This document shows, one piece after another, positions 1,896 to 48,565 of a DNA stretch of 64,000 nucleotides (the stretch's first letter is position 1; every line of letters starts with the position of its first letter). A program made the translations under genes and the position numbers. A model generated the notes under the pieces. That model saw nothing but the letters and a program-made list of their open reading frames with translations. It made no database searches and was not told the DNA's origin. The stretch lies in NCBI GenBank assembly GCA_900450595.1, contig UGGS01000001.1, positions 1,302,001 to 1,366,000 on the forward strand. Direction: 5' to 3'. The DNA is from [Flavobacterium] thermophilum. GTDB taxonomy: Bacteria > Bacillota > Bacilli > Bacillales > Anoxybacillaceae.

Positions 1896-2492
1896 TTATG
1901 CGTTTTGCAACCCGTTCCTTGATTTAAAATAATCTCGTTTTAGAATAGAGTATATAGCCATATCCCTAAATTTACCTTTAATATACCAATGTTCTCTCAT
2001 AACCCCTTCAAATTGCATCCCTAACTTTTGTAAAACTCTTAAAGATTGAACATTTTCAATCATAGCAAATGCCTCAATTCTGTTTAATTCCATCTTGTCA
2101 AAACCAAATTCAATGATTTTATTAGCCGCTTCAACTGCTAATCCCTTCCCCCAATACTTATACGATAAAACAAAACCTATCTCAGCTTTATGATGATTGG
2201 GTAACCATTTAACTATATCAATTGTCCCGATCATTTTATTGTCTGCTTTTGAAACGATTCCCCACGGAGCTAAACTACCTTCTTTATAAGACTTAATTAC
2301 AAATTCTAAAAATTGAATTGAATCTTCAATGGTATGATGAGGTCTCCAAGGTAAATATTTGCAGTTTTCCGGATTTGACGCATAATCAAATAAATCATAT
2401 GCATCATCTAACGTTAATTTTCTTAATATTAAACGTTCAGTAGTAAGTGTAGGCAAATCCCCAAATACATCTTTAATCTTCAAATTCCTCAA
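1896..2492 (-). CDS. GNAT N-acetyltransferase, RimJ/RimL-like
   Basis: 198 residues with the RimJ/RimL layout: N-terminal LTTERLILRKLTLDDA, a central IGTIDIVKW beta strand, then the acetyl-CoA region YKYWGKGLAVEAANKIIEFGF and C-terminal ENVQSLRVLQKLGMQFEG. Such enzymes move acetyl groups from acetyl-CoA to amino groups of proteins or small molecules; the substrate cannot be told here. The gene is markedly AT-rich compared with the host core and sits beside truncated IS982, both suggesting acquisition. The IS remnant lies directly upstream and its last codons overlap this start, so native promoter sequence was probably lost. Confidence 0.8.
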   Translation of the reverse strand: MRNLKIKDVFGDLPTLTTERLILRKLTLDDAYDLFDYASNPENCKYLPWRPHHTIEDSIQFLEFVIKSYKEGSLAPWGIVSKADNKMIGTIDIVKWLPNHHKAEIGFVLSYKYWGKGLAVEAANKIIEFGFDKMELNRIEAFAMIENVQSLRVLQKLGMQFEGVMREHWYIKGKFRDMAIYSILKRDYFKSRNGLQNA

Positions 2493-3244
2493 CCCTTTCT
2501 ATACCTATATTTTAATATTCCTTTCATCCATTGTTTCCATGCATCCGATTGGCGAATTCGCTGATTGTTTCGGACGGGCGTCCAAAACGCGACTCGGTGC
2601 TCTTCGTACAGCTTCTTTCGCAGCGTTTGGCTGATATACCCTTTGTCACCGAAGTTATACGGATGTGGAATTTGCGTCATGACGGTTTCAGCGGCCACCC
2701 GGTCGTGACAAGACGCTTCGGTGACAACATATCCCATCGGCAGCCCTTGATCAGTCACTTGAAGGTGCAGCTTCAATCCGTAGTACCATTGCTTTTTGGA
2801 AGCGCAATATCCGATGTCTGCCATCTCTTGAAATTGTTTGACGCGATGCATTCTTGCCGTATGGCACAACGGGAGCGGCAAGCTGTCAACGACGGCATAG
2901 GCATGATGTTGACCGCGTTTTGCCAGCTCATGACGGATCCATTTGATGGCGAAACCAAGCGCCCGGCAACGGCGGTTGTATCGGGAGCGTTCAAGAAACG
3001 AGCCGTTTGTGAACAAATTTCCCGTGACAAAACGATGCCATGCCCGTTCGGATGTAAAACCGAGCAGCTTTCCTAAAAGATGAATGGCGATGATGACAGC
3101 GTCCTCTTGCTTTACCAAATGGCGATTTCGACGGTGAAGATGCACCTGAATGCATGAAAGTTGGGCAGAAACAAAAACGAAAATGGCGGCATATTGCTTT
3201 TGAATCTTGGCTCGATCTGTAGTAAAATGAAAGTGCTCTTGCAT
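2489..3244 (-). pseudogene. IS982-family transposase, C-terminally truncated
   Basis: 251 residues resembling IS982 transposases: AIHLLGKLLGFTSERAWHRF, then VVDSLPLPLC with the first catalytic Asp (D120) and FGDKGYISQTLRKKL with the second (D200). The family normally continues about 40 residues with the third acidic residue. Here homology stops near KQWMK (about base 2520) and runs into unrelated codons that overlap the acetyltransferase start. Lacking the last catalytic residue, it should be inactive. Confidence 0.8.
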
Positions 3245-3346
3245 GGGGATTCTCCTTTCGAATGGCAGGTCGCACTTTCATTCTACAGGAGATCCGCCAG
3301 CAAGGGCTATTTTTATGCTTGCTCAAGTTTATCTAGCACCACGGGT
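2520..3346 (-). mobile_element. Truncated IS982-family element
   Basis: The transposase-side end is marked by AACCCGTGGTGCTAG read on the minus strand (3332-3346), which resembles an IS982 terminal repeat. The other end is missing, removed with the transposase C-terminus near 2520. Boundaries are inferred from the coding break and this one end. Confidence 0.5.
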
Positions 3347-3404
3347 TAAGGAAAGATACCTCGCCTCTGGCACGGCGTCTTTCCCCGATACAACCTTCAT
3401 CTCG

Positions 3405-4019
3405 TCACTGTTGAATATATTTGTCAAACACAAAGCCAAAATCTTTGACTGTATAGTTCTTTTTCGCTTCCGTCAGCCAGCGAAAAGCGTATTCATTCAT
3501 GGCTTGAAAATCCGCCGACACATTGGCGCCGTCACCGCGCATGTTGGCCAACACCTTGGCCGCCAGTTCCAAACTCCGCTCCGCATAGTTGAACTTCGTT
3601 TCGTTTTCATGGCAAATGTCCGCGATCGCCAGCAGCGATTTATACAAATCTTTCAGTTCCTCAATATGCTTTTTATGCACATCAATGGAGTAGGAATGTG
3701 ATCCAATTTTAAATTTAATTTCCGCGTCCAAATCGACCGTCCCGGCCGTCTCAAGCGACACGTCGGAAATCGGATGCTTGTAGTAATCGTAGCGGCGCAG
3801 CGTCCGTTTTTTGCTCGCGGCGCTCGTGCCGTCCAAATGAATGAGCGCGCGGTTGGTGAAGCAATACTCATCCGATTTTGATTTGATAAGAAAATAGATT
3901 TTCTCCCCATCCTCGTGCATCACATAATCATCGGCATCGACTTTGTCATAGTCTTTCGGCTGAATGACCGCACCGATGTCGCTTAACCCAAGCACATCGG
4001 CGGCGACTTTTCCAAACAT
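3405..4019 (-). CDS. YvbH-like PH-domain protein
   Basis: 204 residues starting MFGKVAADVLGL. I chose ATG at 4019 because a GGAGG lies 8 bases before it; the frame upstream is Arg-rich and not native. The first ~125 residues fit a bacterial pleckstrin-homology fold (KIYFLIKSKSDEYCFTNRALIHLDG), and the helical rest fits the YvbH C-terminal extension. The function of the B. subtilis homologue is not established. The gene stands alone between the truncated IS982 element and the permease gene. Confidence 0.7.
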   Translation of the reverse strand: MFGKVAADVLGLSDIGAVIQPKDYDKVDADDYVMHEDGEKIYFLIKSKSDEYCFTNRALIHLDGTSAASKKRTLRRYDYYKHPISDVSLETAGTVDLDAEIKFKIGSHSYSIDVHKKHIEELKDLYKSLLAIADICHENETKFNYAERSLELAAKVLANMRGDGANVSADFQAMNEYAFRWLTEAKKNYTVKDFGFVFDKYIQQ

Positions 4020-4171
4020 GCTCATGTTCCTCCGGCTCCTTCCACGTTTTATCGGCGCTCGCCTATTGGCGGATGAACGGCGTTTTGCCTTAACAAGGCG
4101 CCGTAATCTCATACCTTTCATCTATGTAATACGTCGAGATCGGAAAAACGTTTCATCGCCTCTAAAAATCA

Positions 4172-4194
4172 AAGACCCAACGCCTTTTATGACG
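4172..4194 (-). terminator. Weak terminator after permease gene
   Basis: On the minus strand ACGCC and GGCGT form a short stem, followed shortly by GGGTCTTTGATTTTT. It sits about 20 bases beyond the permease stop. Confidence 0.35.
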
Positions 4195-4214
4195 GCGTCA
4201 GGCCTTACAAGCGA

Positions 4215-5579
4215 CTACAGTTCCCCGCTTAGACGGGAGTCTTTGTTCGTGAGCCGCAAAAAGATCAGGTAAACGAGTCCAATCGCGATCCAAATCAATC
4301 CGAGCTTTTTGCTGAGCGGGTCAAGATTGACCCACACATAACCGATGATGATAAAGCCGATGAGCGGGAACAAGAAATGATTGATGTAATCGTTGCTCTT
4401 TTGTTTGCGCAAAAAATAATTTATCACTGACACATGCAAAAAGAGGAAAGCCGTCAAGGCGCCAAAGTTGACAAGCGAAGCGAGCTTATCAATTTGCGAG
4501 GCGAACACCGTCGTGACAATGAGCGAAATCACAGCGACAAGCAATGTGCTGACGTATGGAGTTTGAAATTTCGGATGCACTTTGGCTAGCACACTGGGCA
4601 GTTTACGGTCGCGACCCATGCTGTACAAAATGCGAGAGATGGCTGCCTGGGCGACGAGCGCGTTTGCGATCCCCCACGAAAGCGCGGTAGCGACGATCGT
4701 TGTCCATTTTAACCATGGTCCGCCTGCCAGCTCCGCAATCTGATAAAACGCCACGTCCGCATTTTTAAACGTCGTATAATCAGGCCAAATGAGAGCAGCG
4801 ACCCATGTTTGCACGATGAAAAGCGCACCGACAACGAGCAAAGCAAAAATGATCGCTTTGCCGATCGATGATTTCCCGTCCCTTGTTTCCTCAGCCAACG
4901 TCGACACCGCATCAAAACCAAGGAAGCTCAAGACGGCCACCGACACCGCCCCCATCACCGTCCCCATGCTGAAATGGTTCGGATCGTACAACGGTTTGAA
5001 CGTAAACTGTGCTCCATTGACGCCTTTTATAATCGCAATCATTCCTGTGATCACAAACACTGCAAGAACGATCAGCTCTAAAACAACAATCACTTTGTTC
5101 GCTTTGGCTGTCATCTCGATTCCGAGAATATTAATGATCGTATTCATGCCAATGAACAGAATGAGCCACACGGAAATCGGCACTTGCGGCACAATGTCGG
5201 CTAAGGCAGCAGCGCTGACCAAATAGAGAAGAGCCGGAACGAAAATGTAATCAAGCAAAATGACCCACCCTGCCATAAAACCGACATATTCATTCATTCC
5301 CCTCTGGGCGTAGGAATACACGGAACCAGCGATTGGAAACGCTTCGGCCATTCTAGCGTAGCTCAGGGCAGTGAAAATCATCCCCACCATTCCGATTAAG
5401 TATGCTAAGGCGACCATCCCTTTTGACCCTTGCGCTACATACCCGTAAATGCCAAAAGGGGCGATCGGCACCATAAACACCATCCCGTAAATCAACAAAT
5501 CAACAAATGTGAGCGACCGTTTTAACTCCTGTTTATAACCGAGCGACTCGACCGATGTGTTCGTTTCAAGTTGCGCCAT
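4215..5579 (-). CDS. APC-family amino acid/polyamine permease
   Basis: 454 residues starting MAQLETNTSVESLGYKQELKRSL, with GAGGAGG before the ATG at 5579. About twelve hydrophobic segments follow the APC pattern: TM1 LLIYGMVFMVPIAPFGIYG, the substrate-binding region near GSVYSYAQRG, and FLGFDAVSTLAEETRDG before TM7. It is an inner-membrane secondary transporter for amino acids, polyamines or related amines. It follows the acetamidase-family gene with a 13-base gap, so the two probably form an operon and the permease may import that enzyme's substrate or a relative. The exact substrate is unknown. Confidence 0.85.
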   Translation of the reverse strand: MAQLETNTSVESLGYKQELKRSLTFVDLLIYGMVFMVPIAPFGIYGYVAQGSKGMVALAYLIGMVGMIFTALSYARMAEAFPIAGSVYSYAQRGMNEYVGFMAGWVILLDYIFVPALLYLVSAAALADIVPQVPISVWLILFIGMNTIINILGIEMTAKANKVIVVLELIVLAVFVITGMIAIIKGVNGAQFTFKPLYDPNHFSMGTVMGAVSVAVLSFLGFDAVSTLAEETRDGKSSIGKAIIFALLVVGALFIVQTWVAALIWPDYTTFKNADVAFYQIAELAGGPWLKWTTIVATALSWGIANALVAQAAISRILYSMGRDRKLPSVLAKVHPKFQTPYVSTLLVAVISLIVTTVFASQIDKLASLVNFGALTAFLFLHVSVINYFLRKQKSNDYINHFLFPLIGFIIIGYVWVNLDPLSKKLGLIWIAIGLVYLIFLRLTNKDSRLSGEL

Positions 5580-5592
5580 CGCCGTTCCCTCC

Positions 5593-6498
5593 TCAATCCT
5601 CAAACAGGCGGATGCCATACGCTTCAAGCACAAATCGCGGTACAAAGAAACGCGCTGTAACAAGTGGGTCAACGACTTGGCTGATTTGTGTCTGACCGGC
5701 AGCGCTGAGCACCATCGTCAAATGGTTCAGCGTCAACGGAGTATGCGGCAACAGCAAATCAACCATTTCCGTAACCGACTGTTTGACCGCTTCATCCAAT
5801 GTTTTGGCCGAGACGATCGTCGCAATGCCATCATCGTTTTGCAACAGTGGATGGTTGAGCGAATATCCTTTCATCACCCGGACGGTAACCGTCACTTCCC
5901 CTGGAATTTCAATTCCAGACACACCGATTTCGCCGTCCCCCATCGCCGCATGCAAGTCACCCAATGCAAACAATGCACCTTTTACAAATACAGGAAAATA
6001 AACGGTTGCTCCTGTTGTAATGAGCTTTGTATCCATATTGCCTCCATGCGGCCCGGGCGTCCCGCACGACACATCCTCACCGCTCGGCGCTACCCCGATG
6101 ACGCCAATCATTGGATTTAATGGAATAGAAAGATGCTCGTCAAATATAGCCCGGTTTTCTTCTACTGGAATCATTTTTGCCTCAAACTGCGGAATCCGGT
6201 CTCCAAGCACCCCGAGCCCTGGTCCGACAGCCATGACCCCCTGTCCTTTGAGGCGAATCTGTTCAATTTTTACCGCTAAAATGTCACCCGGTTCCGCCCC
6301 TTCAATATAGATCGGTCCGGTCGCCGGATTGATATGATTCCAATCGATCGAGTCAAACGGCGTTTCGCTTGAAGTAATTTGATTTTGGAAACAGTCGTAC
6401 GTTTCGATGACAAACGTTTCCCCTGACTGGACTGTTCGAACCGGTTGGTGGTTTTTGCTAAATGCATAAATGGCAGTCGTGCACGGAACAAATGACAT
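5593..6498 (-). CDS. Acetamidase/formamidase family protein
   Basis: 301 residues starting MSFVPCTTAIYAF, with AGGGAGGAAA upstream of ATG 6498; codons further up have no ribosome site. Family hallmarks are NPATGPIYIEGAEPGD near residue 60, GTPGPHGGNMDTK near 150 and ALGDLHAAMGDGE near 185. Members hydrolyse short aliphatic amides such as formamide or acetamide to ammonia and the acid, in the cytoplasm. Pairing with the permease suggests uptake and deamidation of a nitrogen source. Substrate not determinable. Confidence 0.85.
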   Translation of the reverse strand: MSFVPCTTAIYAFSKNHQPVRTVQSGETFVIETYDCFQNQITSSETPFDSIDWNHINPATGPIYIEGAEPGDILAVKIEQIRLKGQGVMAVGPGLGVLGDRIPQFEAKMIPVEENRAIFDEHLSIPLNPMIGVIGVAPSGEDVSCGTPGPHGGNMDTKLITTGATVYFPVFVKGALFALGDLHAAMGDGEIGVSGIEIPGEVTVTVRVMKGYSLNHPLLQNDDGIATIVSAKTLDEAVKQSVTEMVDLLLPHTPLTLNHLTMVLSAAGQTQISQVVDPLVTARFFVPRFVLEAYGIRLFED

Positions 6499-6579
6499 GT
6501 TCGCTTTCCTCCCTTTCGTTTTTGTCTCATTATAACAGGGAGCAAACAAACGTTTTTGCATTTTTTTAATTCATTTTTG

Positions 6580-7869
6580 TTAATTATTTATTTTTTGAAT
6601 TAATAGATAAATATGAGTAAACAAGAAAACGCCAATCCCATTCCATGCTATGGCCTCCAGCACGTTATGGCGCATTCCCCATCGCCAGGCGATCACAAAC
6701 AAACATCCCCATCCGATCATGCCTATAACCCCCATCGGTTTCTCTCCTGTCCGTAAAGCAGCCAACCCAAAACACGAGGAGGCAAGCAAGGCGGTCGAAA
6801 ACATGACCATCCGCATCGGAAGAAGAGGAGCAATAAAAAAGAGGGCTAGTACAAGCAAAAAAGAGATAACATATGTCCATGAGAGATGCCTACTCCACCT
6901 GCGCCAAAAAAAATGCATAACGGAATGCAAGGAAAGGGATAAGCTGAGTGACAACGCCGCCAGCAAGGCAATAGTAAGCGGCCAAGCAATCCAGACAGAA
7001 GAATGAAGCAGCCACCGTTTCAGTATGGAGGCAGTCGAAGCGGCCGCCGCATACGGGACGCATAAGGCTGCAACGGCCAACGGGAGCGGAGCAAGGCAAA
7101 ACGCAGCCATAAAAAACGTCAGCGCAACGCGTTCTTTTTTCAATATTGATGCAATATCCCATACATACTCGTCAGCCAACCATTGCCCGGCAGCTGCCGC
7201 CAGCACAGCCCAAAACAACACGAACAACGAAACTATGTTCACATCGAGGGAAGCTGGGACAGTGCGTATAATCGTCTCATATTGCCGCGCTACACCACCC
7301 GTTAGATAATAGGCAAACGGAACCATTCCCATCACTATATAAACTATGTATAGCAGAACCGTTCCGATTTTTCGCATCCCCAACCAACCGGCGAGCACGG
7401 TAAACACATACACATAGACGAACCAAATGAATAAAAAAGTCGGAGAAAAACGAAAGAGTTGCTGCAACAAATACGCACATAACCCGACAACGATAAGCAG
7501 CCGGCCGATCGAAAGAAGGCGAACAAAAAACCGGAAGAAAAACAAAGCCCGCGCCGTAAAACAGCAGCCCGGCCAGCGATCCCCTTCCTCTGTTAGGGAA
7601 CGATAGCGTCCGGCTGCTGCTGAACGCCAAAGCACAAAAACGGCAGTCCATACCGCCATAGCCGTCACCACTCCCGCCGCCACTCCACCTCGAATAAAAG
7701 CATAACATCCAAACAACAGCAGCTCCCCGGATGCGAAACGCAACAACAGAGCATTGACCCCTTTGCTTAATCCAAGCGCCTCCGCTCCGATAAAACTGGA
7801 GCGACCAATATGCGGCACGGCAGCAAGCAGCAGTACGCATGCCATGAATAAAAGCATATACCAGTCCAT
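6580..7869 (-). CDS. Polytopic membrane protein, unknown function
   Basis: 429 residues with about 11 predicted membrane helices and short loops. I recognise no family with confidence; the overall layout (EYVWDIASILKKERVAL loop between helices) faintly recalls sodium:solute symporters, but this is only an impression. The start codon overlaps the stop of the response-regulator gene (TAATG), so the three-gene cassette kinase-regulator-membrane protein is translationally coupled. It may be a transporter or sensor partner of that two-component system. Confidence 0.6.
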   Translation of the reverse strand: MDWYMLLFMACVLLLAAVPHIGRSSFIGAEALGLSKGVNALLLRFASGELLLFGCYAFIRGGVAAGVVTAMAVWTAVFVLWRSAAAGRYRSLTEEGDRWPGCCFTARALFFFRFFVRLLSIGRLLIVVGLCAYLLQQLFRFSPTFLFIWFVYVYVFTVLAGWLGMRKIGTVLLYIVYIVMGMVPFAYYLTGGVARQYETIIRTVPASLDVNIVSLFVLFWAVLAAAAGQWLADEYVWDIASILKKERVALTFFMAAFCLAPLPLAVAALCVPYAAAASTASILKRWLLHSSVWIAWPLTIALLAALSLSLSLSLHSVMHFFWRRWSRHLSWTYVISFLLVLALFFIAPLLPMRMVMFSTALLASSCFGLAALRTGEKPMGVIGMIGWGCLFVIAWRWGMRHNVLEAIAWNGIGVFLFTHIYLLIQKINN

Positions 7870-8570
7870 TATCCATTGTTCTCCTTATACTTCGTAGGTG
7901 AGATGCCGACATATTTTCGAAACAAATGGCTGAAATGATGTTGGCTGGAAAACCCCGTCTCCTCAGCAATGCGTGCCATGGACCAATCCGGCTTTTTGGT
8001 CAACAGCTCTTTCGCCTTTTCAATCCGATATCGATTGACGTAATCCTTAAAATGGATGCCGATCTCCTCAACAAACAACCTGCTCAAATAGGCTGGATGT
8101 ACATGCACGGCAGCGGCTACCTCGGTTAAGCTGATTTTTTGTGCATAATGACAGTGCACATATTCGAGCGCCGCACGGATGAGCGGGGACGAGACAAGCG
8201 CTTCTGGATGCTTTTGTTCAAATTTCGACAACGCTTGATCAAACTCGCTCTCGATGAGCGGCTTCACCAAGTAGTCGAGCACTTCAAGCTGAATCGCCCG
8301 TTTGGCATAAGCAAAATCTTGGTAGGCTGTGATAATGATCAAGGCAAGATCGGGCTGTTTTTGTTTGAGCTCATAGGCCAAATCCAACCCGGACTGTCCA
8401 GGAAGGTGGATATCGATCAGCGCCAGCCGGAAGCGATGGGATGCGGCCAACCGTTTCGCCTCTGCGGCATCCTCCGCCGGCCATACTTCCCAATGCGGAT
8501 ATTTCCGCTTCACCAAATACGTGAGTTGTTCCAATTCCAAATATTCATCATCGACAATCAGCACCTTCAT
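7869..8570 (-). CDS. Response regulator, YesN/AraC type
   Basis: 233 residues. The receiver domain (1-120) has the acidic pair in VLIVDDEYLELEQL, phospho-acceptor Asp in LALIDIHLPGQSG and Lys in DYLVKPL. Residues ~130-233 form an AraC double helix-turn-helix (SLTEVAAAVHVHPAYLSRLF and MARIAEETGFSSQHHFSHLF). It binds DNA after phosphorylation by the kinase encoded 3 bases upstream. Target genes are unknown; the linked membrane protein gene or the upstream direct repeats at 9357-9404 are candidates. Confidence 0.85.
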   Translation of the reverse strand: MKVLIVDDEYLELEQLTYLVKRKYPHWEVWPAEDAAEAKRLAASHRFRLALIDIHLPGQSGLDLAYELKQKQPDLALIIITAYQDFAYAKRAIQLEVLDYLVKPLIESEFDQALSKFEQKHPEALVSSPLIRAALEYVHCHYAQKISLTEVAAAVHVHPAYLSRLFVEEIGIHFKDYVNRYRIEKAKELLTKKPDWSMARIAEETGFSSQHHFSHLFRKYVGISPTKYKENNG

Positions 8571-8573
8571 CGT

Positions 8574-9323
8574 TTATCCCTCATCCCCTGGAACATACGG
8601 CCAAACGACAAGCGCCTCTGTCCAGCCGCGTTCATCTTTTTGCAACACAAGCTGAGTTGGCAAATCAAACAAAAGAGCAAACCGCTTGCGCAAATTATCC
8701 AAGCCGACACCTTCATTCGTGATGGATAACTCCTTCCCTTCATTGCCATTATCGCAGACACGCAAATATACCCAGTTGCCTTGGCGTCGAAAATCGATCG
8801 CCAAACATTTTTCACCCGCTTTTTTCTCAAGGCCATGTTTGAATGCGTTTTCCACCAGCGTTTGCAACGTATAAGAAGGAATGAGCGCACGCTCTCCATC
8901 CGGATCCATTTGCACCGACACCGACAGCCGTGAACCGAAGCGAAGCTGCTGCACCGCTAGATAGTTGCTTGTATGCGCCCATTCTTGTTTGAACGGAATA
9001 AGCGGCTGTTTCGTCTCATAGCTATCACGCAAAAACAGCGCAAAATGCTCCATTCCCCGAATCATTTCTTCATTTTTTCCTAAGCGTGCCAAGGATAAGA
9101 AAGCATTCAACGCATTGAAAAAGAAATGCGGTCGGATTTGTTGATGGAGCTGCATATACTTGCTTTCTTGAAGTTCTTTTTCCAGTCGAAGGCGCGCATG
9201 TTCCAACTGCCAATAATCCACTTCTTTTTCCGCTACTCCCAACAGCGCCAACACTGTTAACGATATAAGCGGCAACAATACGCTGAAAATGAGAATGAGA
9301 TGAAATAATGGCTCGGCAATCAT
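8574..9323 (-). CDS. LytS/YesM-type sensor histidine kinase
   Basis: 249 residues. Start taken at ATG 9323, 6 bases after GGGGAG; ATG 9326 and GTG 9344 are alternatives. One N-terminal membrane segment (HLILIFSVLLPLISLTVLAL) is followed by a coiled stretch, the His_kinase motif LHQQIRPHFFFNALNAFLSL with phospho-His, and a HATPase domain (LVENAFKHGLE, VCDNGNEG, GVGLDNLRKRF). There is no large extracellular sensor domain, so it may sense through the membrane or a partner such as the co-encoded membrane protein. Confidence 0.8.
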   Translation of the reverse strand: MIAEPLFHLILIFSVLLPLISLTVLALLGVAEKEVDYWQLEHARLRLEKELQESKYMQLHQQIRPHFFFNALNAFLSLARLGKNEEMIRGMEHFALFLRDSYETKQPLIPFKQEWAHTSNYLAVQQLRFGSRLSVSVQMDPDGERALIPSYTLQTLVENAFKHGLEKKAGEKCLAIDFRRQGNWVYLRVCDNGNEGKELSITNEGVGLDNLRKRFALLFDLPTQLVLQKDERGWTEALVVWPYVPGDEG

Positions 9324-9356
9324 CATATTCTCCCCGCCACTCACGATGCTTTTCCA

Positions 9357-9404
9357 TTTGTTCTTTCATTTTATCACAAATTTGTTCTTTCATTTGATCA
9401 CAAA
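9357..9404. repeat. Tandem 24-bp direct repeat upstream of kinase
   Basis: Two adjacent 24-base copies (9357-9380 and 9381-9404) differ at one base; each reads TTTGTTCTTTCATTT then TATCACAAA or GATCACAAA. They sit 34 bases upstream of the kinase start, where tandem sites for an AraC-type regulator would be expected. Confidence 0.6.
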
Positions 9405-9499
9405 ATAAATAGAGGCGGCGGTACAAGGCAAATGTTTCCCACATCTGCAAACGTATTTTCCATCATCTTGGTTCCCATTCTACCTGCTGCCGACAAAAA

Positions 9500-9541
9500 A
9501 CGGGGCTAACCCAAACACGAGTGTGTTTCGGGTCAGCCCCT
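9500..9541 (-). terminator. Rho-independent terminator
   Basis: GGGGCTAACCC...AAACAC pairs with GTGTTT...GGGTCAGCCCC; on the minus strand the stem is followed by TTTTTTG. It ends transcription of the broken nagE/TIM-barrel region. Confidence 0.75.
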
Positions 9542-43637: not shown

Positions 43638-44078
43638 TCAGTTACATAACGCTTTGCTTTTCGCAATATGCTTTTTCAAATACACAGTCGTCCCTTTGTT
43701 CACTTCCGATTCGACGATGACTTCATCCATGAAATTTTCCATAATCGTAAACCCCATCCCTGACCGCTCAAGCTCGGGCTTTGTCGTAAACAACGGCTGG
43801 CGCGCTTCTTCGATGTCAGAAATGCCGACTCCTTCGTCTCTCACCGTCAAATGGACGACACCGTCTTCAATGATGACCGAAATGGAGACGATGCCGTTCG
43901 GATCGTTGTTGTAACCGTGAATGATGGCGTTCGTCACCGCCTCCGAGACGACCGTTTTAATTTCTGTCAGCTCATCCATCGTCGGGTCGAGCTGGGCGAC
44001 AAACGCCGCCACCGTCACGCGGGCGAACGACTCGTTTTCACTGCGGGCGGAAAATTGGAGGTGCATCTCGTTGCGCAT
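43638..44078 (-). CDS. spoIIAB: Anti-sigma F factor SpoIIAB
   Basis: 146 residues, GHKL kinase fold: [35 protein letters not shown] and [16 protein letters not shown]. It binds SigF and phosphorylates SpoIIAA. It starts directly after the spoIIAA stop (TAAATG). Confidence 0.96.
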
Positions 44079-44429
44079 TTATGCCACCCCCAATGCCTGC
44101 AACGCAAATTGTTCATCCGCCTCAAAGCGAATGATTTTAAACAGTCCCGACATGTCAAACAAGCGCTTGACCGTCGGCGACACAGCGCAGACGACCATCT
44201 GTCCGCCGACGTTTTTAATTTGCTTATAGCGCCCTAAAATGACGCCGAGACCGGAACTGTCCATAAACGTCAGCTGTCTTAAATTGAGCACGATATGGCG
44301 GATGCCCCGGTTTTCGAGCACATCCGTCACCTGCTCGCGCAATTCTTCCGCTGTATGATGGTCAAGCTCTCCGGAAAGGCGAACGATGAGCACGTCTTGC
44401 TTCACTTCCAAGTCGATCGCGAGACTCAC
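44079..44429 (-). CDS. spoIIAA: Anti-anti-sigma factor SpoIIAA
   Basis: 116 residues from a GTG at 44429 (GGAGG 8 bases upstream); the 13 codons before it are not family-like. STAS domain with the phosphorylated Ser in [18 protein letters not shown]. Unphosphorylated SpoIIAA frees SigF by binding SpoIIAB; SpoIIE dephosphorylates it after septation. Confidence 0.95.
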
Positions 44430-44465
44430 AGCGTGTTCCTCCTTGTCCATTTCAGGATACGGAGA

Positions 44466-44495
44466 CATTTCGCTGCCGCTCGCCGGAAATCCTGC
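44466..44495 (-). promoter_or_regulatory. Sigma-H-type promoter of spoIIA
   Basis: On the minus strand GCAGGATTT (44487-44495), 12 bases, then AGCGAAATG (44466-44474) fits RnAGGAwww-N11/12-RnnGAATww with one mismatch. It lies 37 bases before spoIIAA, between dacF and spoIIAA, matching the sigma-H promoter known in B. subtilis. Confidence 0.65.
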
Positions 44496-44554
44496 CGCCC
44501 GACAAAACTAGTGGTTGTTCGCCAAAGATAGGGAAAAGGCCGCAAAAATTGACA

Positions 44555-45730
44555 TTATCCCGCTTGGACGAAACGGCTGAACACCCGTTTAAACAAGTCC
44601 CAAAAGCTGGCCTCCGCCACCGTTTGCTTCGCGACGATCGGGCTGCGCAAAATTTCTTTTCCATCCTGCTTCAAAATGAGGACGCCGAGCTCATCGCCTT
44701 TGCGAACCGGGGCCTTCACATCGTCTTTCACTTTGATCACTTTTTCAATTTGTTTGGTTGATTGTCCTTTTTTCGTCAACACTGACACCGGCTCAGACGT
44801 CACCGCCGCCACCGATTTTTGCTTTCCTTTGCTGACGTTGACATGGGCGACGGTTTCATTCCGCTCGTATACCGGAAGGGTTTGGTATTGAGCAAACGCG
44901 TAATCAAGCATTTTTGTAATTTGAGCGTTGCGCGATTTCGGCGTCGGCGCTCCGAACACGACGGCAATGACGCGCATGCCGTTTCGTTCCGCTGTTGCGG
45001 TCAAGCAATATTTCGCCTCGCCCGTATATCCTGTTTTTAACCCGTCAACACCCGGATAAAATTTGACAAGACGGTTTGTATTGACGAGCCAAAACTTCTT
45101 GTCCGTATTTTCGCGCAAATAGTCTTCGTATTTGCTTGTATATTTCGTAATGTCTTCATATTTCAACAGTTCGCGCGCCATAGCGGCCATGTCATGGGCG
45201 CTGCTGTAGTGATCTTCCGCCGGCAGGCCGGTTGCGTTGGCGAAATGGGTGTCTTTTAAGCCGAGCTGTTTCGCTTTTTCATTCATCATCTCAACAAACG
45301 CCTTTTCTGATCCGGCGATCCGCTCAGCCATGGCAACGGAAGCGTCATTCGCCGAACCGATGGCGATGGCGCGCAACAGCTCATCAACGGTCATTTCCTC
45401 GCCCGGCTCAAGGAAAATTTGCGACCCGCCCATCGAAGCTGCGTATTCGCTTGCCCGCACTTTTTCGTCGTAGGAGAGCTTGCCTTCGTCGATCGCTTCC
45501 ATAATCAACAACATCGTCATAATTTTCGTCATGCTCGCCGGCGGCAGTTTTTCATGGGCGTTTTTTTCATAAAGCACGGTGCCGGTGTCGCGCTCAATCA
45601 AGATCGCCGACTTCGCTTCATCGGCCAGCTCCACCTTTGCCGCCTTCTTTTCGTGTGACTCGGCATGCACGGAAAGAGGAAGGAACAGAAGAATCGGCAA
45701 TACAAGCAGACGGATGACTGTCGTTTTCAT
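44555..45730 (-). CDS. dacF: D-alanyl-D-alanine carboxypeptidase DacF
   Basis: 391 residues from ATG 45730 (GGAGG 8 bases upstream). A signal peptide (MKTTVIRLLVLPILLFLPLS) precedes the PBP5-type domain with SMTK, SAN-type motif in IGSANDASVAMAERIAG and KTG in DGLKTGYTGEAK. It trims spore peptidoglycan from the forespore side; in B. subtilis it is SigF-dependent and can be read through into spoIIA. Confidence 0.93.
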   Translation of the reverse strand: MKTTVIRLLVLPILLFLPLSVHAESHEKKAAKVELADEAKSAILIERDTGTVLYEKNAHEKLPPASMTKIMTMLLIMEAIDEGKLSYDEKVRASEYAASMGGSQIFLEPGEEMTVDELLRAIAIGSANDASVAMAERIAGSEKAFVEMMNEKAKQLGLKDTHFANATGLPAEDHYSSAHDMAAMARELLKYEDITKYTSKYEDYLRENTDKKFWLVNTNRLVKFYPGVDGLKTGYTGEAKYCLTATAERNGMRVIAVVFGAPTPKSRNAQITKMLDYAFAQYQTLPVYERNETVAHVNVSKGKQKSVAAVTSEPVSVLTKKGQSTKQIEKVIKVKDDVKAPVRKGDELGVLILKQDGKEILRSPIVAKQTVAEASFWDLFKRVFSRFVQAG

Positions 45731-45800
45731 CTCCCAAACCTCCATTCTTTATACATGCCATTTTTTCCAGCAAAGATATTTTTATACAAAAAAACAAAAA

Positions 45801-45871: not shown

Positions 45872-46921
45872 TCAAACGATCGTCTCGTACACGAGCGGCG
45901 GCGGAGTGACAGGTTTAGGCGAAAGCCGGATGGCTGAGGACAGCGTTTCCTCCACCTCGCGCACGTCCGGCCGGTTGCTGTGGATCGTGGCCAACGTTTC
46001 TCCCTTTTGCACACGGTCACCGATTTTTTTATGAAGCACGACGCCAACAGCCAAGTCGATCGCGTCCTCTTTTTTCGCCCGACCGGCGCCAAGCCGCATG
46101 GCGGCTGTGCCGACTTCATCGGCGGCAATCTCGGCGACATAGCCGTCTTCCTTGGCGGCAACCGGGAAGGTGTACGCCGCTTTCGGCAAGTTGTCCGGGT
46201 TGTCGACCACCAACGGATCACCACCTTGCGCGGCTAAAAATGTTTTGAACGCTGCGATGGCAGAACCGTCGCGGAGCGCCCGTTCAAGCAGGCGCCGCGC
46301 CTCCCCAAGTGTCGATGCCCGTTCCGCCAGGCATACCATATGGCTGCCGAGCGTCAAACAAAGTTCGGTCAAATCGCGCGGCCCGTTTCCTTTCAGGGTG
46401 TCAATCGCCTCTTTCACTTCCAGGGCGTTGCCGACGGCATAACCGAGCGGCTGGCTCATATCAGAAATAATGGCCAACGTTCGGCGGCCGACGCGCTTGC
46501 CGATGTCGACCATCGCCTGGGCGAGCTGGCGCGCCCCGTCGAGTTCTTTCATAAACGCCCCCGCGCCCGTTTTGACGTCGAGCACGATGGCATCAGCGCC
46601 AGCGGCGATTTTTTTGCTCATGATCGATGAGGCAATGAGCGGGATGCTGTTGACCGTCGCGGTCACATCGCGGAGCGCGTACAGCTTTTTGTCAGCAGGC
46701 GTCAAATCGCTTGTTTGGCCGATAATGGCGATCTTGTTTTCGTTGACGAGCCGAATGAACTCCTCTTTGCTTATTTCGACATGAAACCCGGGCACCGACT
46801 CAAGTTTGTCGATCGTGCCCCCTGTATGGCCAAGGCCGCGCCCGGACATTTTCGCTACCGGCACGCCGACGGCGGCGACGAGCGGGCCTAACACGAGTGT
46901 CGTCGTATCGCCGACGCCGCC
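45872..46921 (-). pseudogene. pdp: pdp (pyrimidine-nucleoside phosphorylase), 5' end displaced by integration
   Basis: 349 codons matching residues 85 to the end of the 433-residue B. subtilis Pdp ([40 protein letters not shown]). The first ~84 residues, including the conserved Lys-His-Ser before GGVGD that helps bind phosphate, are replaced by recombinase sequence. The enzyme, which splits uridine, thymidine and deoxyuridine with phosphate, should be inactive in this state. Precise excision would rebuild it. Confidence 0.9.
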
Positions 46922-48565
46922 AAAAGAAATAAAAGAAATTTTACCTCCCACATTTTTTTGCTCTTCTTTTGGAGACAAAGGAATCGAAAAATATAACTTA
47001 ACGTCACCATCTTTATCAATTTCAATTTTTTCAATAATTTTATCAATCATTACTTTTTTCATATGATAAGGAACATAGTGTATATTTTTAGAAAAGTCTC
47101 GTATTTCTTCAATAATGGATTGAATAACATTATCTTGATCGGATTGCATATTTAACTGATTTTCTAATTCTTGTTTTGTTTTCTTTGCTTCATTCAATTT
47201 TTTTAATATTTCAGCCTGATCGCTTTGATAACTCTCTTTCAGTAATTCATAATTTTCATCATTTTCATCTAAATCAAGTAATAATCGTCTAATAGCAGCA
47301 TAATCTTTATTTAAACGTTCAATTTTTTTATTCGTTTCTTCTAATGCAGTCTTTAGTTTTTGGTCAGATTCATTTAAACTTTCTTGTATTTTTTGTATTT
47401 CACTATCTAAATTTACATTAGAAATATATTCAATAATTTTTTGTAAAATAAATTCTTCTAACAATTCTTTTTTGAATTGTTTTGATGGACACGGATCTTT
47501 CCCAATATGTGTTATCCCACTTTTCCCACCACATACATAATAGCTATATCTTTTTCTGTTTTGTGTAGAGTTCCTTCCGTAAAATTTATTTCCGCATTCA
47601 CTACAATACAATAGTCCTGTTAATAAAAAAGAAGTAGTGTATCGTCTTGGTTCAGAAATTTCATTTTCTCTTCTCCTTTTTTCCCTTAAAATCTGTTCAT
47701 GTCTTTCTGGTGTTCGACAAGGTTCATGATTTCCTTTTGCACGAATAATTAAAGAATCATCATCTACTGAACGCTTATTGCCCGATGTACTGTATTCTAT
47801 AACACCTGTGTAAAAAGGATTAAATAATATTGTGCTGATTACCTCTTTTGTCCAATATTCAGAAGAATTTTTATGCTGTTTTCTGCGATGCGCTCTCCCT
47901 TCTGGACGATATCCTAAGTTATTTACTTTTTCTCCATTTAACCATTTTGCAATAGAATATAACCCATAGCCTGCTAAATATAAATCTTCAATTTCTTCAA
48001 TAATCTTTACTTCTTCTGGAACTAATACAATTTTTTTATCTTTTAATACATAACCATATGGAAGATTTCCACCAGTGAATTCTCCTTTTTTTGCTTTATT
48101 TTTTAATGTGTCTGATACGCGAACAGAAATAGTAGCCGATTCAATTTCAGCAATAGAAGCTTTAATCGCTTCTAACATTTTTCCGTATGGATCATTCATC
48201 ATGGCTTGCATTTCGCCTGTGGCTGAAAATATCAATTCACAATTAGCTTTTTTTAAAATATCCCATATTGCCATTGCATCTTCTAACTTTCTTGCTAAAC
48301 GGTCACGTTTATAAACAATTAATTTATTAAATAATCCATTTTTAGCATCGTTTAAACATTCCATTAATACTTCACGGTTTTTTAGTTCTGTTTTACTTGC
48401 CGATACAGCAGGCTCAATATAGGTGCGATAATGAATGCCATTATTTTCTTTAATAATTTGCATCCCTAACGCTTCTTGCATTTCAATAGAGTCTCCATGT
48501 TCAGCTTGCCGTTCAGTTGATACACGAATATAAATAGCATAAATGTCTTGTTTTTTATTTGACAC
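45872..48565 (-). CDS. Large serine recombinase fused in frame to the C-terminal part of Pdp
   Basis: 897 residues. Residues 1-548 are a large serine integrase: catalytic Ser16 in [31 protein letters not shown], a recombinase domain ([20 protein letters not shown]), a zinc ribbon ([10 protein letters not shown] ... CGG ... CPSKQ) and a coiled coil. From residue 549 ([17 protein letters not shown]) to the end it is Pdp. Base composition switches from AT-rich to GC-rich at 46921, the att site. A ribosome site GGTGGGAG precedes ATG 48565. The recombinase's own C-terminus would differ in the excised form. It should integrate and excise the element. Confidence 0.9.
46911..46921. other. Attachment site (attL/attR junction) in pdp
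   Basis: GC-rich host codons for GGVGD (GGCGGCGTCGG on the minus strand) meet AT-rich phage sequence at 46921/46922. The crossover dinucleotide for a serine integrase lies at or next to this point; its exact bases need the other junction. Confidence 0.75.

Follow-up and report, generated by a model that had tools for sequence, protein, structure and literature searches.

We consider it likely that the 64-kb stretch of DNA analysed here (G000:C1:1302001-1366000, hereafter the window) carries the attL end of a ~144-kb prophage resembling phage GVE3, whose int gene spans attP, so that the integrating crossover exchanges the 3' ends of int and of the host pyrimidine nucleoside phosphorylase gene pdp while the phage supplies a spare pdp. 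The host Pdp parts lying before and after the crossover are called PdpN and PdpC below. The features of the window on which this reading is built are as follows.

45872..48565, minus strand: integrase-PdpC fusion, the attL product (ORF list and Pfam)
46923..48565, minus strand: large serine integrase part, ~548 codons before the core (Pfam; 92.4% identical to the GVE3 integrase over 548 aa)
46898..46922, minus strand: 25-bp core common to attL and attR, in the codons for an 11-residue stretch
45872..46897, minus strand: host pdp 3' part after the core, 349 codons counting the core (Pfam and junction comparison)

The minus-strand open reading frame 48565..45872 runs over 897 codons from a GTG start without any internal stop. 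Its residues 10-377 match the Pfam families Resolvase, Recombinase and Zn_ribbon_recom, and since all three domains are found, the integrase part is a large serine recombinase (serine integrase). Residues 547-881 match Glycos_transf_3 and PYNP_C, and the Pdp N-terminal domain is absent from the 897-aa ORF according to Pfam. A first-pass annotation of the same DNA had claimed that the recombinase frame stays open through an attachment site junction at 46921 and into the last 349 codons of pdp. All of this is borne out: the Pdp part counts 349 aa from GGVGD onward, and position 46921 falls inside the 25-bp core, which occurs once in the 64-kb window. Directly downstream of the fusion and on the same strand lie three ORFs (window 43638-45745) which we take to be dacF, spoIIAA and spoIIAB; read-through from int could reach this candidate sporulation operon.

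The other end of the element emerged from a search of G000 with the Pdp N-terminal domain, which matches at three places: two 626 bp apart within G000:C1:1492181-1492992, and one near 1,248 kb. On this attR side (minus strand, L085), ORFs of 400 aa and 283 aa, presumably drm and pupG, are followed by a 209-codon ORF (counted from its first ATG) and then by a 432-aa Pdp. The 209-codon ORF consists of host Pdp codons 1 to ~92 and, in frame after an 11-residue stretch, a phage-derived tail of ~120 residues (PdpN-tail). The TGA of the tail overlaps the ATG of the complete phage pdp by 4 nt (ATGA). Promoter predictions around attR numbered 9, with 8.0 expected, and are uninformative. The right-hand junction that the first-pass annotation had proposed to seek is therefore this PdpN-tail ORF, 143,831 bp from attL and sharing with it the 25-bp core. 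The rebuilding of pdp upon excision, claimed in the same place, is supported by joining the host flanks at the core, which yields a 433-aa Pdp identical to that of G. thermodenitrificans at 383/433 residues (88.5%); the insertion at the junction is clean, because the joined flanks give an uninterrupted protein. In a phylogenetic tree, the rebuilt host Pdp part groups among Geobacillus Pdps. The prophage's own Pdp (432 aa) is 91.2% identical to GVE3 gp55 and shares 254/431 aligned residues with the host Pdp. This copy is full length, GVE3 gp55 shows all three Pdp domains in Pfam, and the phage copy is a predicted pyrimidine nucleoside phosphorylase. Two aspects had been overlooked at first pass: the complete phage pdp behind attR, in view of which the lysogen, judging from the predicted protein, need not lack Pdp, and the reciprocity of the exchange, the tail being transferred onto host PdpN.

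Phage GVE3 (Geobacillus virus E3) inserts in the pyrimidine nucleoside phosphorylase gene and carries pdp (PMC8303945, PMC8779076); a 23-bp duplicated site is reported and the lysogen was proposed to rely on the phage enzyme (PMC8303945). Its junctions are drawn in Figure 7 of PMC8779076, and PMC8880864 cites GVE3 in its reference list only. The present element has a size similar to that of GVE3 (143.8 kb vs 141.3 kb). From the junction onward, 60% of 17,080 bases of the window are covered by GVE3 at 89.0% identity, and the core of GVE3 attP is identical to that of attL/attR at 24/25 bases, with one mismatch. Integrase, att core, flank and size all agree, and the element is a GVE3-like prophage. 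The likeness extends to the same integrase family, the same target gene and a phage pdp behind the integrase. The passages on GVE3 in PMC8303945 and PMC8779076 make no mention of in-frame fusions at both ends, of a helix-turn-helix (HTH) tail or of relatives in other families.

The phage form of the integrase can be read directly from GVE3, where gp56 counts 675 codons, those after the core being the codons of the attR tail, and is followed by gp55, a complete Pdp, with the same ATGA overlap. A second phage-form integrase, P0001 (673 aa), is identical to the window integrase before the core at 536/548 residues (97.8%). A database search with the tail retrieved four proteins among 132 candidates, all of them integrases bearing the tail: P0001, P0002 (a fragment), P0003 and the distant P0004. 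The attP form, Int-tail, is present in GVE3, P0001, P0003 and P0004. Since the phage-form integrases bear the attR tail, Int-tail is what the free phage encodes, and integration produces the 897-aa ORF of the lysogen. With attP and the joined host site thus reconstructed, as the first-pass annotation had suggested, two more of its claims hold: attP lies inside the integrase coding region, gp56 and P0001 having a ~120-residue tail where PdpC stands in the window ORF, and the C-terminus of the integrase changes upon integration. A free phage besides GVE3 was looked for in two ways: the matches listed from IMG/VR were GVE3 or relatives at 23-25% identity, and the tail, compared with 50,697 phage records, matched two GVE3 records and no others.

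As the sequence shows, attP is situated between integrase codon ~548 and the in-frame ~120-codon tail, with the complete phage pdp behind. The crossover most likely takes place inside the host pdp codons for GGVGD[T/K], a motif present in 42/42 host Pdps examined (a subset of 80 pdp loci), and exchanges the 3' ends, converting Int-tail and Pdp into Int-PdpC and PdpN-tail; excision would return all proteins to their original form. The main gain would be that a strongly conserved gene becomes usable as a target without loss of Pdp function, and such Pdp replacement appears, from the predicted gene products, as the best-supported role of the arrangement. Host transcription and translation would be carried over to the phage pdp by the host start, by a PdpN-tail in frame with it and by the 4-nt overlap. 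Because the tail would itself be a working protein domain, the integrating Int-tail and the excising Int-PdpC would differ as proteins, and this difference may help to set the direction or the level of recombination. Excision by Int-PdpC is plausible because engineered C-terminal fusions of serine integrases to recombination directionality factors (RDFs), as described in PMC5737554, recombine, with reduced attP x attB activity. The idea that the phage pdp escapes self-insertion through a changed core holds in the present prophage and in GVE3; in one relative described below (G652), the 8-bp core occurs in the phage pdp as well, so the idea is not general.

The same organization recurs in distant genomes. 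A search with fusion residues 440-720 gave 1427 matches among 7993 candidates scored, and among the best 120 of these, three combine recombinase domains with a Pdp devoid of its N-terminal domain. These Int-PdpC fusions all belong to Paenibacillaceae: P0010 (919 aa), P0011 (Paenibacillus tianjinensis, 920 aa) and P0012 (899 aa). Within the window's family, a search of 41 genomes at E 1e-40 finds the window integrase once, in G000. P0001 is matched at E 1e-80 in 3/394 Paenibacillaceae genomes, one per species (G652, G604 and G680), and in all three a PdpN-tail ORF is followed by a complete Pdp. By eye, P0011 could be assigned to G652 and P0012 to G680. The two att ends share a contig in G652 and G680. 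In the draft genome G604 (G604:C45; L106 / L091) they fall on separate contigs, and the integrase there is broken into two overlapping frames a short way before att, its last part being in frame with PdpC. The attR layout of PdpN-tail and complete Pdp is common to G000, G652, G604 and G680, and is also found in G882 with one extra ORF between. The overlap between tail stop and pdp start, measured at five loci (G882 and G528 were left out), is 4 nt in four of them (GVE3, G000, G604, G680), G652 having a 5-nt gap; the phage pdp of G680 starts with TTG. Database entries for P0011, P0012 and the P0007 protein introduced below are named 'thymidine phosphorylase' or 'pyrimidine-nucleoside phosphorylase', which masks the fusions.

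Searching with a tail profile at E 1e-5 detected 3/397 genomes of the order (G000, G882, G1051) and 5/394 Paenibacillaceae genomes (G652, G604, G680, G528, G086). The G1051 and G086 matches (E 3e-6) were discarded as being, by eye, Cro/C1-type proteins without a Pdp part. Two pdp loci with long open frames among the matches listed, in G370 and G430, turned out on inspection to be ordinary host pdps. A further PdpN-tail, P0007 of Anoxybacillus flavithermus, was one of four matches among 25 candidates, the other three being the tail-only pieces P0005 and P0006 and the odd P0008 (156 aa), in which the first ~95 residues of the integrase are joined straight to the tail by an internal deletion or an assembly artefact. 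In sum, the layout is complete in three Paenibacillaceae genomes and partial in two others.

In G882 (L124, G882:C7:16000-28000, 2040-9322), a ~6-kb island at pdp retains att-type ends, with PdpN-tail, a second tail-like ORF and Pdp at one side and PdpC at the other. Instead of a phage, the ~4 kb between Pdp and PdpC encode LmuA, LmuC and LmuB of the Lamassu defence system (E 8e-48, 5e-7 and 3e-84). A relative of the integrase was not found in this genome at E 1e-30, and the island is possibly a defence cargo moved by the integrase of a helper phage. The spare Pdp of G882 is sister to the G882 host PdpC (support 100/99) and was thus acquired from, or homogenized with, a closely related gene of a host. 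In G528 (L125, G528:C9:2440000-2454000, 7884-9528), a tail remnant stands directly before a phage-type Pdp, adjoining a purine nucleoside phosphorylase-like ORF. This phage-type copy is the sole Pdp match of the genome at E 1e-30 and groups with the phage Pdps of G652 and G604 (support 82/73, modest). The spare phage pdp appears to have replaced the host gene in G528, and its being alone suggests that this Pdp works. A single old capture of the phage Pdps is unsupported, as the tree shows no single clade and the G680 phage Pdp (PH_G680) has a very long branch.

The tail itself is conserved as a protein. The five most divergent tails, those of the present prophage, P0004, G652, G604 and G680, are 22-38% identical, and all ten of their pairs exceed the shuffle mean by 12 to 46 SD; among the three Paenibacillaceae genomes and G000 the identity is 24-36%. 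Between the prophage and GVE3, 11.5 synonymous and 6.5 nonsynonymous differences over 117 codons give the tail a dN/dS of 0.125, with counts that are small; in the same comparison dN/dS is 0.076 for int and 0.162 for the phage pdp. The tail is under purifying selection. Its dS of 0.187 (L084:7663-8028 vs L085:7376-7741) is lower than those of int (0.464) and pdp (0.269), which is unexplained.

Several lines of comparison indicate that the tail is probably a Cro/C1-type helix-turn-helix domain. HTH_3 reaches 23.1 bits in the G680 tail, the sole one over the Pfam cut-off of 23, and falls below the cut-off in the tails of the present prophage, GVE3, P0005 and G604; the G882 fusion matches HTH_26 alone, also below cut-off, and the G652 and P0004 tails have no HTH match in Pfam at E 0.1. 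The second tail-like ORF of G882, outside the fusion, matches HTH_3 at E 2.1e-4 with 21.7 bits against the cut-off of 23. In an AlphaFold2 (AF2) model of P0007, the helical bundle of Pdp is followed by a low-confidence stretch at residues 68-107, where the att codons lie, and then by the tail, which is helical at 109-197 and has pLDDT 88-94 over residues 121-180. The tail of the divergent P0004 is also modelled as helical (pLDDT 67-89 over 581-670); over its full length this phage-form integrase is modelled poorly (mean pLDDT 55), and the tail region of the model alone was used. Foldseek retrieved the controller proteins C.BclI and C.Esp1396I (TM by target 0.70-0.71, E 0.3-0.5), the aligned range being presumed to be the tail. 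The 50 entries shown by VIA-align all fall on model residues 1-75, the Pdp part, and are silent on the HTH. Against PDB sequences the tail profile gave weak matches, the best at E 0.08 being a Cro/C1-type protein, and the PHROGs contained no family for the tail at E 0.01.

These properties bear on the alternatives. The tail might be a mere leader that keeps the frame open from host pdp to the start of the phage pdp for translational coupling, the Int fusion being an effectless by-product of the shared att codons, and we regard this as possible though rather doubtful. It would account for the 4-nt stop/start overlap in four of the five loci measured, for the retention of PdpN-tail and Pdp in G882, where an integrase relative was not found, and for the tail remnant directly before Pdp in G528. 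However, a leader need only be open, whereas the tail is conserved as a protein at 22-38% identity and under purifying selection, and G882 carries its second tail-like ORF outside the fusion, with an HTH_3 match that is under cut-off. G882 retains both PdpN-tail and the spare pdp while its genome yielded no integrase relative, and the tail may therefore be of use to the operon of the lysogen rather than to Int.

The N-terminal helical domain of Pdp is dimer-forming. The hypothesis of a 'genetic switch', advanced in the first-pass annotation along with a possible effect of integration on integrase stability or activity, can be given a more definite shape, which we hold only tentatively: the DNA-binding tail would be on Int solely before integration and afterwards on PdpN under the host operon, nucleoside metabolism could feed through PdpN-HTH into the regulation of the prophage or of int, and Int-PdpC would be an excision-only form. 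A role of the tail as RDF is disfavoured, as its presence on Int before integration corresponds to the wrong state.

It is unlikely that the in-frame fusion is a neutral by-product of having attB in a coding gene, with neither fusion protein mattering. A shared frame is weak evidence alone, because it is a 1-in-3 event given coding on the same strand, and once the frame is shared at one junction, the rest of pdp is necessarily open and the other junction is in frame, so that both fusions follow; the frame is moreover inherited among related phages, whose agreement is not independent. Against such a coincidence stand the selection on the tail and the recurrence of the whole cassette in diverged phages. 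What goes beyond chance is the recurrence of Int-PdpC fusions in Paenibacillaceae (P0010, P0011, P0012) together with the conserved displaced tail, and a 1-in-3 coincidence of frame could have begun the design by accident.

An integration-dependent immunity, in which the HTH is freed from Int, fused to PdpN, produced from the host operon and acts as a repressor in the manner of mycobacteriophage BPs, agrees with the HTH similarity of the tail (Foldseek, Pfam), with the PdpN helical bundle being retained in the model and with attP inside a repressor gene being a known arrangement (PMC4557955), but it is improbable, since GVE3 likely has another repressor system: gp146 (L128 10015-11016), annotated as integrase, is homologous to MrpR/YopR, the master repressor of SPbeta (E 2e-42), and further entries in the GVE3 record are an anti-repressor, an Arc-like repressor and a putative immunity protein. 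The tail as sole immunity repressor thus seems unlikely. Going by the MrpR homologue in GVE3, the prophage would be SPbeta-like. GVE3 gp148 had no PDB match at E 0.01.

The Int protein of myxophage Mx8 belongs to the tyrosine recombinases, and the new end that it acquires is short. Its attP lies within int, and integration generates a new int 3' end modifying specificity, in what was called a molecular switch (PMC6070905). The system favoured here, a crossover exchanging 3' ends with a spare pdp supplied, resembles Mx8 as described there in that attP is in the integrase coding sequence and integration alters the integrase C-terminus (gp56 and P0001 vs the window ORF); it differs in that a serine integrase acquires most of an enzyme as its new end, while the conserved domain that it gives up is moved onto a host protein. 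In BPs, attP is located in the repressor gene and integration shortens the repressor, which loses a degradation tag (PMC4557955). Going by that account, both systems have attP in a coding gene whose product changes C-terminus upon integration, but here integrase and host enzyme exchange ends, whereas the BPs repressor is shortened. The engineered fusions of PMC5737554 similarly place a large domain on a serine integrase C-terminus; unlike these permanent constructs, as they are presented there, the swap is natural and brought about by recombination itself, and the tail as RDF is unsupported. In open-licence PMC papers no account was found of a serine integrase with attP inside int, of a reciprocal swap with a host enzyme, of an HTH tail or of the occurrence in both Anoxybacillaceae and Paenibacillaceae; van Zyl 2015, the paper on GVE3 integration, may report some of it.

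A phage family would thus break a conserved metabolic gene, bring its own spare and, by the same crossover, give new ends to both the recombinase and the host enzyme. As the integrating and excising enzymes would differ by a whole domain, these phages may offer a natural system for asking why serine integrases are one-way.
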